From Peribacillus loiseleuriae (lineage in GTDB: Bacteria > Bacillota > Bacilli > Bacillales > DSM-1321), in the NCBI RefSeq assembly GCF_001183985.1, contig NZ_LFZW01000001.1, positions 2,243,357 to 2,307,356 on the forward strand: a stretch of 64,000 bases of DNA, read 5' to 3'. Positions 31,625-40,785 of this stretch are shown here, one piece after another. Each line of letters opens with the position of its first letter. The stretch's first letter is position 1. The notes under the pieces were generated by a model. It did no database searches and was not told the DNA's origin. It saw nothing but the letters and a program-made list of their open reading frames with translations. A program made the translations under genes and the position numbers.

Positions 31625-31687
31625 TTGACGAAAGAAACCCTTAATGATATTATACAGTTAATTAATTTGTTTGGTAAACAAATTAAT
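31625..31687 (+). promoter_or_regulatory. Uronate-regulon promoter and ROK operator 4 (before the larA homologue)
   Basis: TTGACG at 31625-31630, 17 bases, TATTAT at 31648-31653, then a palindrome at 31661-31687 with perfect 12-base arms ATTAATTTGTTT and AAACAAATTAAT around three bases. Layout and sequence nearly equal the uxaC promoter, linking the nickel-pincer cluster to glucuronate use. Confidence 0.85.
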
Positions 31688-31745
31688 ATAAAATTTTAAT
31701 TTATTTTAGTTATATAACAATGATATAATCAATATACTTCTGAAT

Positions 31746-31760
31746 TTGAAAGGGGTTACA
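31746..31760 (+). promoter_or_regulatory. cre-like catabolite-control site 3
   Basis: TTGAAAGGGGTTACA fits the cre consensus apart from the central C to G change, as at 2826 and 6125, and again lies downstream of the operator. Confidence 0.5.
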
Positions 31761-31852
31761 AATAATCTCAATCAAGTACCATTTTCACGTCATCTATATT
31801 CATATTTGGCGGAAATTTGAAGAATCATAAAGAAAAAGGAGTGTAGTTATTT

Positions 31853-38105: not shown

Positions 38106-38137
38106 ACCCAACTAATATTTAAGCGAGAGGAGTATGA

Positions 38138-38617
38138 ATGATGGTTGCCAAACATCCTCCAAATCATGAACATCTTGATGATCAAATGATCAAAATGGAA
38201 GTGAATCTTGATGATATTCCAGGAGAATGGCTTGGATATGTGATGGATTTACTTTTCGAATCTGGTGCAAATGATGTATTCTATACCCCAATTTTTATGA
38301 AAAAAAATCGACCGGGTATATTACTTCAATTACTCTGTTCATCTAGCAAGATAAACAAAATGAAAGAAATCCTATTTAAAGAAACGACAACACTTGGTGT
38401 ACGCTATTATCCATTAACGGTTCACCGGTTAGAAAGAATGTTTAGTGAAGTAACAACTGAATGGGGAATAGTGACGATCAAAGAGGGAATATACGATGGA
38501 CAAGTTGTACAAAGAGCACCAGAGTATGATGAATGTAAAAACATCGCCCAACTTCATGATGTTCCTTTAAAAAAAGTGTATGAACAAGTATGGAAGTCAT
38601 TTGAGGATAAAAAGTGA
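38138..38617 (+). CDS. larC2: Nickel insertion protein LarC, C-terminal part (LarC2)
   Basis: The 159-residue protein has the LarC C-terminal domain pattern: MEVNLDDIPGEWLGYVMDLLFESGANDVFYTPI, then KNRPGILLQLLC (each conserved block shown in part). GAGAGGAG precedes two adjacent ATGs (38138 and 38141). An in-frame TGA at 38135-38137 directly before the ATG rules out a -1 ribosomal frameshift from larC1 downstream of that point, unlike L. plantarum, where LarC is made by frameshifting. LarC1 and LarC2 probably assemble as two chains. Confidence 0.9.
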   Translation: MMVAKHPPNHEHLDDQMIKMEVNLDDIPGEWLGYVMDLLFESGANDVFYTPIFMKKNRPGILLQLLCSSSKINKMKEILFKETTTLGVRYYPLTVHRLERMFSEVTTEWGIVTIKEGIYDGQVVQRAPEYDECKNIAQLHDVPLKKVYEQVWKSFEDKK

Positions 38618-38763
38618 GCCAGACCATTTCGTTTAATTGTTTCTGAAAATAAGGAGTAAGCCGCATTCGCTACACATCAGAGATAGAATTGTAATATCAA
38701 TAAAAGTGTAAAGCATGAAAGCGAATTAATACTAAATATTTTACTAGATTAGGAGTGTAAGAG

Positions 38764-40785
38764 ATGAAGACATTGCTAAATGAAACACAAGTTGATCAAT
38801 TAGCCATTAATACAATTCGAACATTATCCATTGATGGTGTCGAAAAAGCAAACTCTGGCCACCCGGGTATGCCGATGGGGGCAGCTCCAATGGCCTATAC
38901 ACTTTGGGCAAAAGAAATGAATCATAATCCTGTAAATCCTAAATGGTTTAATAGGGACCGATTTGTATTATCTGCTGGGCATGGCTCTATGCTTTTATAT
39001 AGCCTATTGCATGTATTTGGTTACGATGTGACAATGGAAGATTTAAAGAATTTCCGTCAATGGGGAAGTAGAACGCCAGGACATCCTGAATTTGATCATA
39101 CACCTGGAGTTGAAGCAACGACTGGTCCTTTAGGACAAGGGGTTGCTATGGCAGTGGGAATGGCGATGGCAGAAAGACATCTCGCAGAAACATACAATCA
39201 AGAAGGGCATAATATCGTTGACCACTTTACTTATAGTATTTGTGGCGATGGAGATTTAATGGAAGGCGTTTCTGCTGAAGCTGCATCACTTGCAGGTCAT
39301 TTAAACCTAGGACGCCTTGTCGTAATGTATGATTCTAATGATATCTCTCTAGATGGCGATTTGAATTTATCATTTTCAGAGAGTGTAGAAGATCGATTTA
39401 AAGCTTATGGCTGGCAAGTGATTCGCGTTGAAAATGGAAATGATGTCGATGCCATTCAAGAAGCGTTACAATTAGCCAAGTCTGATTTGAATCGCCCAAC
39501 TTTAATAGAGGTTAAAACGGTAATTGGATACGGTTCTCCAAATAAGTCAGGTAAGTCATCTTCTCATGGTTCACCGCTTGGTAAGGAAGAAATTCAGTTA
39601 ACGAAAGCTTCTTATAATTGGAATGTGGAAGAGCCATTTTTTATCCCTGAAGAAGCTAAAGAGCACTTTAAACAGTATACTGCTACAGGTCAAGAAAAGG
39701 AAAACATTTGGAATGAATTATTTGAAAGTTATAAGAACAACTATCCAGAGCTAGCTAAGCAATTTGAGGCTGCTTTAGCAGGAGAGCTTCCTGAAAATTG
39801 GCAAGAAGCCTTACCAACCTTTACAGAAGGGGATGTAATCGCGACAAGAGATTCATCAGGGAAAGCACTGAATGCTGCTGCTAATATGATTCCACAATTG
39901 CTTGGTGGTTCTGCAGATTTAGCAGGATCCAATAAGACATTCCTATCATCTGAAAAAAATTACATGATAGATGGGTATGCAGGTCGCAATATTTGGTTCG
40001 GTGTTCGGGAATTTGCGATGGGAGCCGCCCTTAATGGAATGACTCTTCATGGTGGCGTGAAAGTATTTGGTTCTACATTTTTCGTTTTCTCAGATTATTT
40101 ACGTCCAGCCATTCGCCTAGCTGCACTCATGAAACTTCCTGTTACGTACGTATTTACACATGATAGTATTGCAGTAGGGGAAGATGGACCAACACATGAA
40201 CCAATCGAACAACTTGCAGCATTACGTGCAATGCCAGGACTTTCTATTATTCGTCCAGCAGACGCAAAAGAAACGGTTGCGGCATGGCGATTAGCATTAG
40301 AAAGTACGGATACACCTACAGCACTCGTTTTAACACGTCAAGGCCTACCAACATTAAACGTTGATGAACCAACCGTTTATGAAGGTGTGAAAAAAGGCGC
40401 TTATATAGTATCAAAGGCAAAAGGCGAAGTCAGCGGTTTATTGATTGCTACTGGATCAGAAGTAACTTTAGCAATTGCTGCTCAAAAAGAACTTGAAAGT
40501 GAAGGGATTTTTGTATCGGTTGTCAGCATGCCAAGTTGGGACCGTTTTGAAAAACAGCCGATTGAATATAAAGAAAGTATTTTACCAAAAAATACAAAAG
40601 CTCGTATTGGGATTGAAATGGGTTCATCTATTGGTTGGAGAGAATACGTTGGAGATAATGGAGCAGTAATTGCGATCAATCAATTTGGAGCATCGGCACC
40701 AGCAAGTAAATTGCTCGAGGAATACGGATTTACTGTTGAAAATGTAGTGAAAAGATTTAAAGAAGTTACTTCCTCAATGAATTGA
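38764..40785 (+). CDS. tkt: Transketolase
   Basis: The 673-residue TPP enzyme transfers two-carbon units between pentose and other sugar phosphates. It shows MANSGHPG-type KANSGHPGMPMGAAPMAY, the TPP motif GDGDLMEGVSAEAASLAGHL, GAALNGMTLHGG and the C-terminal GEDGPTHEPIEQLAALR. AGGAG precedes the ATG. It lies 146 bases after larC2 in the same direction and ends at a strong terminator. Next to gluconokinase it would handle ribulose 5-phosphate made by Gnd; a main housekeeping copy may exist elsewhere. Confidence 0.96.
   Translation: MKTLLNETQVDQLAINTIRTLSIDGVEKANSGHPGMPMGAAPMAYTLWAKEMNHNPVNPKWFNRDRFVLSAGHGSMLLYSLLHVFGYDVTMEDLKNFRQWGSRTPGHPEFDHTPGVEATTGPLGQGVAMAVGMAMAERHLAETYNQEGHNIVDHFTYSICGDGDLMEGVSAEAASLAGHLNLGRLVVMYDSNDISLDGDLNLSFSESVEDRFKAYGWQVIRVENGNDVDAIQEALQLAKSDLNRPTLIEVKTVIGYGSPNKSGKSSSHGSPLGKEEIQLTKASYNWNVEEPFFIPEEAKEHFKQYTATGQEKENIWNELFESYKNNYPELAKQFEAALAGELPENWQEALPTFTEGDVIATRDSSGKALNAAANMIPQLLGGSADLAGSNKTFLSSEKNYMIDGYAGRNIWFGVREFAMGAALNGMTLHGGVKVFGSTFFVFSDYLRPAIRLAALMKLPVTYVFTHDSIAVGEDGPTHEPIEQLAALRAMPGLSIIRPADAKETVAAWRLALESTDTPTALVLTRQGLPTLNVDEPTVYEGVKKGAYIVSKAKGEVSGLLIATGSEVTLAIAAQKELESEGIFVSVVSMPSWDRFEKQPIEYKESILPKNTKARIGIEMGSSIGWREYVGDNGAVIAINQFGASAPASKLLEEYGFTVENVVKRFKEVTSSMN

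Follow-up and report, generated by a model that had tools for sequence, protein, structure and literature searches.

The 64,000-nucleotide stretch of Peribacillus loiseleuriae DNA examined here (contig NZ_LFZW01000001.1, positions 2,243,357 to 2,307,356; referred to as the window, whose own coordinates are used unless a contig is named) carries a gene cluster that brings together a homologue of LarA, a short-chain dehydrogenase/reductase (SDR), the nickel-pincer nucleotide (NPN) cofactor synthesis genes larE, larB, larC1, and larC2, an FGGY-family kinase, and a transketolase. The original prediction for this larA cluster, made from the sequence of the window, was a glucuronate pathway in which D-mannonate is epimerized to D-gluconate instead of being dehydrated. 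Gene calls from the window and from the remainder of the 5.43-Mb host genome (7 contigs) were scored against NCBIfam and Pfam models with curated bit score cutoffs, and the features of the locus are collected in Table 1. The LarA homologue, the SDR, the four cofactor genes, and the transketolase were all found where they had been placed, each with a model over its cutoff. The open frame of the SDR spans positions 33096 to 33911, with the ATG at 33141 as its likely start; its top two PDB matches are tied, and the second of them is 1vl8, annotated as gluconate 5-dehydrogenase, which we take to be Thermotoga TM0441, and the uronate reductase UxaD of Thermotoga is presumably also of the SDR type. 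About 24 kb upstream of the larA cluster lie uxaC, gnd, and a second ROK gene; gnd belongs to the uxaC island, as had been claimed, and the two ROK proteins, one beside uxaC and one beside larA, are 57% identical.

The claim that uxaC and the larA operon share an operator type was strengthened by the genome-wide search. A 23-bp palindrome is common to the stretches 5' of uxaC and of larA, and the exact sequence, TAATTTGTTTN3AAACAAATTA, occurs at only three sites in the genome: 5' of uxaC (6066), of gnd (7894), and of the larA operon (31663). Three further sites have two mismatches; one is inside larE and the others are at C1:2001325, where the neighboring open reading frames (ORFs) did not look related, and C1:5057944. 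When up to three mismatches were allowed, the window contained four matches, compared with a mean of 0.10 in 100 shuffled sequences, none of which reached four. The palindrome resembles the operators of XylR-type ROK repressors.

Table 1. Features of the uxaC-gnd island and the larA cluster (window coordinates)
Feature	Position	Strand	Basis or remark
GPH-type sugar transporter, candidate uronate/glucuronide carrier	2858..4279	+	PF13347 MFS_2; loosely in uxaC island
ROK-family repressor beside uxaC	4726..5952	-	PF00480
Operator palindrome 5' of uxaC	6066..6088		exact match
uxaC, uronate isomerase	6171..7589	+	NF002794, 646 bits, cutoff 387
Operator palindrome 5' of gnd	7894..7916		exact match
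gnd, 6-phosphogluconate dehydrogenase (decarboxylating)	8563..9999	+	NF006765, 789.5 bits, cutoff 413
ROK-family repressor, divergent from larA operon	30338..31513	-	PF00480
Operator palindrome 5' of larA operon	31663..31685		exact match
LarA homologue, NPN isomerase group 22, clade A; predicted D-mannonate/D-gluconate 2-epimerase	31853..33121	+	NF052515, LarA fold, conserved residues, linkage
SDR, UxuB-like fructuronate reductase/D-mannonate oxidoreductase	33141..33911	+	PRK08277, 292.5 bits, cutoff 281
larE, nickel-pincer cofactor sulfur transferase	33986..34810	+	TIGR00268, 366.6 bits, cutoff 150
FGGY kinase, predicted gluconokinase	34951..36423	+	best NCBIfam model gntK_FGGY, under cutoff; PDB 3gbt
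larB	36455..37243	+	NF033503, 309.7 bits, cutoff 175
larC1	37200..38105	+	TIGR00299, 219.5 bits, cutoff 90
larC2	38138..38617	+	NF052512, 146.6 bits, cutoff 50; own ORF
Transketolase	38764..40785	+	TIGR00232, 957.3 bits, cutoff 682.25

The absence of uxuA, previously noted for the window, extends to the whole genome, where the UxuA search returned no match; the same search matched 5 of 14 control genomes. A ManD-type mannonate dehydratase, sought in the genome through the MR_MLE family, was not found either and was set aside as an exit, the two matches looking by eye like menC and enolase. The one gene for 2-keto-3-deoxy-6-phosphogluconate (KDPG) aldolase, kdgA, lies outside the window and adjoins a PfkB protein resembling a 2-keto-3-deoxygluconate (KDG) kinase (kdgK), which scored under its model's cutoff. 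The statement that kdgK and kdgA are missing therefore holds for the window, in whose ORF lists no kdgK was seen (kdgK was not made the object of a family search there), but not for the genome. Since uxuA is missing, an intact uxuA-kdgK-kdgA set was not found in the genome search. The kdgK-kdgA pair can be accounted for by a second, separate uronate locus for galacturonate at C1:609-614 kb, which contains another uxaC, the tagaturonate reductase gene uxaB (692.9 bits; cutoff, 359), a UxaA-like dehydratase gene whose best model, galactarate dehydratase, was below cutoff, and what looks by eye like a LacI-type regulator. With this uxaC-uxaB-uxaA set present and no uxuA, an exit from the larA cluster through KDPG was set aside.

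The LarA homologue belongs to NPN isomerase group 22 (NF052515), with 561.6 bits over residues 13 to 400 against a cutoff of 400; the next-best NCBIfam model reached just 27 bits. The protein has 422 residues and shows 98% identity to proteins recorded for P. loiseleuriae. It was assigned the LarA fold, with a resemblance to the structure of GntE (4NAR). A PDB search with the single sequence gave no match, and a profile search gave one weak match (E value, 0.96) and did not return 4NAR at E values up to 1. In a sample of 397 genomes of the order, group 22 proteins over the cutoff were present in 79. There were 103 such matches, 102 of which were analyzed (100 fetched and 2 from the host genome, a partial one from genome G253 being left out), and they fell into three bands of identity to the window protein: A, with 69 to 100% (39 proteins); B, with 51 to 56% (22 proteins); and C, with 39 to 46% (41 proteins). 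In the tree, A and B each formed one clade (SH-aLRT support of 100 and 99, respectively), as did A and B together (98), and C comprised the rest. Residues were mapped onto LarA by a weak local profile alignment against a set of lactate-racemase-type proteins, a global alignment having been unsuccessful. By this alignment, the catalytic histidines H108 and H174 of LarA correspond to H93 and H158, which are present in all 102 proteins. The cofactor residues K184 and H200, mapped by the 16-residue spacing common to LarA and GntE2 (PMC7583248), correspond to K171 and H187, again in 102 of 102, and R75 corresponds to R61 in 101, the remaining row being truncated.

The linkage of a larA-like gene with uxaC and gntK, for which a search of other genomes had been suggested, was found and, among the group 22 loci, was seen in clade A only. 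Within about 9 kb of the 39 clade A genes, the SDR was found in every locus and directly adjoined the larA homologue in 38; gntK was found in 32, larE in 32, larB in 26, larC1 in 21, the ROK gene in 20, gnd in 18, and uxaC in 18. In contrast, gntK, gnd, uxaC, and the ROK family of clade A were found in 0 of the 63 clade B and C loci. UxaC was present in all 39 clade A genomes, compared with 132 of 397 overall, a count that leaves out one below-cutoff match (G020; E value, 7e-4). Clade A spans 11 families of the sample, which is phylogenetically clustered. One clade A locus (L141, in G241), which was kept in the counts, has stops in the larA homologue and in uxaC, a truncated frame, and an altered gene order, and it looks decayed or badly assembled. 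Seven clade A loci have an ilvD-like neighbor on the other strand, which was considered unrelated.

A second, named set of loci was drawn from public genomes as the best 80 of 560 confirmed places, 75 to 97% identical, and overlaps the sampled set in at least 15 loci. It includes Neobacillus, Niallia, Mesobacillus, Priestia, Halalkalibacter, Lederbergia, Oceanobacillus, Paenibacillus, and others. By a longest-ORF call, which can hide genes (as it did for 1 of the 80 LarA homologues), these 80 loci contained the SDR in 71 cases, larE in 66, gntK in 61, larB in 58, uxaC in 33, gnd in 33, and transketolase in 9. All five of uxaC, gnd, the larA homologue, the SDR, and gntK occurred together in nine named loci, and they form a single run in Neobacillus mesonae (L158). 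With up to three mismatches allowed, 26 of the 38 sampled clade A loci and 61 of the 80 named loci had the palindrome, whereas none of the 63 clade B and C loci did; most, although not all, of the copies in the sampled and named loci stand 5' of a group 22 larA gene, uxaC, gnd, or a ROK gene. A beta-glucuronidase gene (PRK10150, 874.3 bits; cutoff, 544) is found in L046 (identical to L203), with relatives at 55 to 56% in L149 and L165, and its presence in clade A loci points to glucuronate.

The distribution of the canonical mannonate exit was also compared. A strong UxuA match was found in 18 clade A genomes and not in the other 21, which include the host genome, compared with 73 of 93 uxaC genomes outside clade A (Fisher P = 0.0004, a value that ignores relatedness and, because the genomes are related, overstates their independence). 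The UxuA count was 118 of 130, with 12 weak or fragmentary matches left out, one of them (G317) from clade A. Among the 132 uxaC genomes, 20 had neither a strong UxuA match nor a clade A protein, so that other exits must exist. Eight uxaC genomes had no KDPG aldolase over the cutoff, and none of the eight had UxuA; five were clade A genomes and three were not (Fisher P = 0.049, with 10 genomes that had matches below the cutoff, G241 included, counted as being without the aldolase). The three outside clade A (G112, G139, and G211) had UxaC E values of 1e-107, 6e-69, and 7e-28, compared with 6e-181 or better in the other uxaC genomes except G169, which has a weak UxaC match and a KDPG aldolase. 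Judged by these E values, the uxaC genes of the three are likely to be fragments.

The explanation that we consider best, and in which we have good confidence, is that the uxaC, gnd, and larA units constitute a single glucuronate regulon repressed by the ROK proteins, which would bind at the shared palindrome. Glucuronate would pass through fructuronate to mannonate, the same first two steps as in the canonical UxaC-UxuB-UxuA-KdgK-KdgA pathway. In that pathway mannonate is then dehydrated by UxuA; here, where UxuA is absent, the group 22 LarA homologue is predicted to invert C2 of D-mannonate to yield D-gluconate, which the operon kinase and Gnd would carry through 6-phosphogluconate and ribulose 5-phosphate into the pentose phosphate pathway. 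The LarA homologue is predicted to use the nickel-pincer cofactor, which LarB, LarC, and LarE, encoded in the same operon, would make, and glucuronate breakdown in this bacterium is therefore likely to depend on nickel. Galacturonate would run apart, through uxaC-uxaB-uxaA and then kdgK-kdgA, and the two hexuronates would thus be split between the KDPG and pentose phosphate pathways. The predicted route is the best fit to what the searches of the whole genome returned, to the operator with its three sites, and to the 39 orthologous loci, although its chemistry is not new and the genome does contain kdgK-kdgA and other gluconokinases.

Several observations weigh against this explanation. The position aligned to LarA D72 (residue 58) holds V or A in every group 22 row but one, which has a gap, so D72 looks absent in group 22, and LarA K298 has no clear counterpart there in the weak local alignment. 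The match of the mapped residues over the full length depends on that alignment and on spacing. Group 22 is remote from GntE (LarAH groups 18 to 20), and the E-V/S loop signature of GntE after the second catalytic histidine was not found; T159-A160 are present in all 39 clade A proteins. The palindrome was not seen, at up to three mismatches, in 12 of the 38 sampled clade A loci. The sequence does not reveal specificity here, and the sister clades B and C are found in other sugar acid loci; these points leave room for an enzyme that inverts C2 of another sugar acid, such as altronate, in which case the linkage to uronate genes would reflect a side reaction or the use of another uronic acid. 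The very high Michaelis constant of Corynebacterium GntE1 for mannonate (PMC7583248) can be cited to the same effect. We regard another substrate as very unlikely, however, because no pair other than mannonate and gluconate connects what the SDR would make with a gluconokinase-like kinase and with Gnd, and the genes for all of these share one operator.

The kinase is a further weak point. A gluconokinase had been claimed for the cluster, and gntK_FGGY (TIGR01314) is indeed the nearest model, but the score of 484.7 bits falls under the cutoff of 648.55. Two canonical gluconokinases are encoded elsewhere in the genome, as is a GntP permease outside the window, and exogenous gluconate therefore has its own genes. 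The best PDB match of the cluster kinase is 3gbt, annotated as gluconate kinase (305.7 bits; the next reached 179.3), and from this match and the gene context we predict that it acts as a gluconokinase. The order of steps might nevertheless be reversed, the kinase making 6-phosphomannonate and the LarA homologue epimerizing it to 6-phosphogluconate. In Lactobacillus suebicus, uronate carbon (there galacturonate) likewise reaches 6-phosphogluconate via mannonate with no KDG step, and extracts converted mannonate and ATP to 6-phosphomannonate and made no gluconate from mannonate; unlike in our scheme, phosphorylation there precedes epimerization, and no genes were assigned to the two new steps (PMC6978723). 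That order accords with the below-cutoff score of the cluster kinase. In the other direction, the top structural match of the kinase is a gluconate kinase, and the NPN epimerases for which PMC7583248 and PMC11770544 describe assays use unphosphorylated acids. In addition, seven clade A genomes lack the kinase in the locus (two loci being cut by a contig end). Three of them have canonical gluconokinases only, and free gluconate is then the simpler intermediate; the other four have a cluster-type kinase elsewhere (465 to 474 bits), and in three of these four a stop was counted within the match. Phosphorylation before epimerization is thus unlikely, and free gluconate is preferred.

The 18 clade A genomes that keep UxuA also count against the proposal in its simplest form, since in them the epimerase route would be a second exit from mannonate. 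As epimerases work both ways, these genomes could instead suggest that gluconate is converted to mannonate and leaves through UxuA. Such reverse flux is extremely improbable in our view, given that 21 of the 39 clade A genomes, this one included, have no strong UxuA match and that one operator is common to uxaC, gnd, and the larA operon.

An NPN enzyme that converts mannonate to gluconate and works with GntK and Gnd is already known: the NPN epimerase GntE has been described in this role in Thermotoga (PMC3750489, PMC7583248) and also occurs in Corynebacterium (PMC7583248), and in vitro work has demonstrated the epimerization with GntE proteins from other LarA groups (PMC7583248, PMC11770544). 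The aldH-pelB-gnd-uxaRED-gntEK operon of Thermotoga maritima (GntE is LarAH20, PDB 4NAR) is similar to the present system in that gnd, a uronate reductase gene (uxaD), an NPN mannonate/gluconate epimerase gene, and a gluconokinase gene belong to one regulon that feeds the pentose phosphate pathway (PMC3750489, PMC7583248). Thermotoga, however, has an enzyme of group 20, the GntR-type regulator UxaR, galacturonate entry via UxaE, and a kdgA-kdgK-uxuB-uxuA operon, whereas the present operon includes the NPN synthesis genes and encodes a group 22 enzyme, its regulator is likely of the ROK family, and the genome lacks UxuA. Since the Thermotoga chemistry is published, what is new here is the enzyme group, the lack of UxuA, the regulon, and the breadth of occurrence. 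NF052515, of which the window protein is a member, names a family without a substrate, and clade A now receives a predicted one. No substrate for group 22 was found in the available parts of the literature, including PMC7583248, PMC11770544, PMC12611868, PMC6978723, PMC3750489, and PMC11796402; the supplementary tables of PMC7583248, with gene contexts for each group, lay outside this search.

The sister clades have their own contexts. Clade B loci (n = 22) contain tripartite ATP-independent periplasmic (TRAP) transporter genes (21 loci), IlvD/EDD dehydratase (21), FAH-family (21), altronate-dehydratase-like (18), and aldehyde dehydrogenase (17) genes, a context that, in L045 for example, resembles an oxidative pentonate or hexonate route. 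Clade C loci (n = 41) contain a PrpR-like regulator (25), a DUF1537 kinase (24), and PdxA (23), the other genes being variable; a 25-row clade inside C (SH-aLRT, 100) has the DUF1537 kinase in 24 of its loci. The host genome encodes a second group 22 protein, of clade C type (L009:6908-8155; C1, approximately 4.21 Mb), beside PdxA, a DUF1537 kinase nearest to D-threonate kinase but below cutoff, a PrpR-like regulator, larE, and a GntP permease, and this protein is a candidate erythronate/threonate 2-epimerase. A third LarA homologue (L008:7644-8906; C1, approximately 0.51 Mb) is of the lactate racemase type, with 2yjg as its best PDB match; inspection by eye suggests that its neighbors encode a glycerate kinase, a permease, and a regulator resembling CdaR, and it is perhaps a glycerate racemase. 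Haloferax volcanii was the sole control genome of the 14 with a group 22 protein over the cutoff, which indicates that the group reaches the haloarchaea.

Two other features of the window may be recorded. The larC1 and larC2 genes (37200-38617) are two ORFs with 32 bases between them, the larC2 frame being closed back into larC1; in Lactobacillus plantarum, larC1 and larC2 are joined by a frameshift. A major facilitator superfamily transporter gene at 52445-53721, followed by another SDR gene, is split into two overlapping frames (52445-53557 and 53332-53721) and looks disrupted.

Taken together, the gene contexts suggest that group 22 enzymes invert C2 of aldonates of several lengths. We are inclined, if only slightly, to go further and to regard the whole group as nickel-pincer aldonate C2-epimerases, with clades adapted to different chain lengths (C6 with uxaC-SDR-gntK-gnd, C4 with a D-threonate-kinase-like protein and PdxA, and C5 or C6 with IlvD/EDD, FAH, and aldehyde dehydrogenase proteins), in which case nickel would be obligatory for much of the sugar acid catabolism of the Bacillales, glucuronate included. 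If the proposed glucuronate regulon is correct, a LarA group without a reported function would gain a substrate class, neither mannonate dehydratase nor KDPG aldolase would be needed in a widespread glucuronate route of the Bacillales, and nickel would be required for growth on a sugar acid that is common in plants and hosts.

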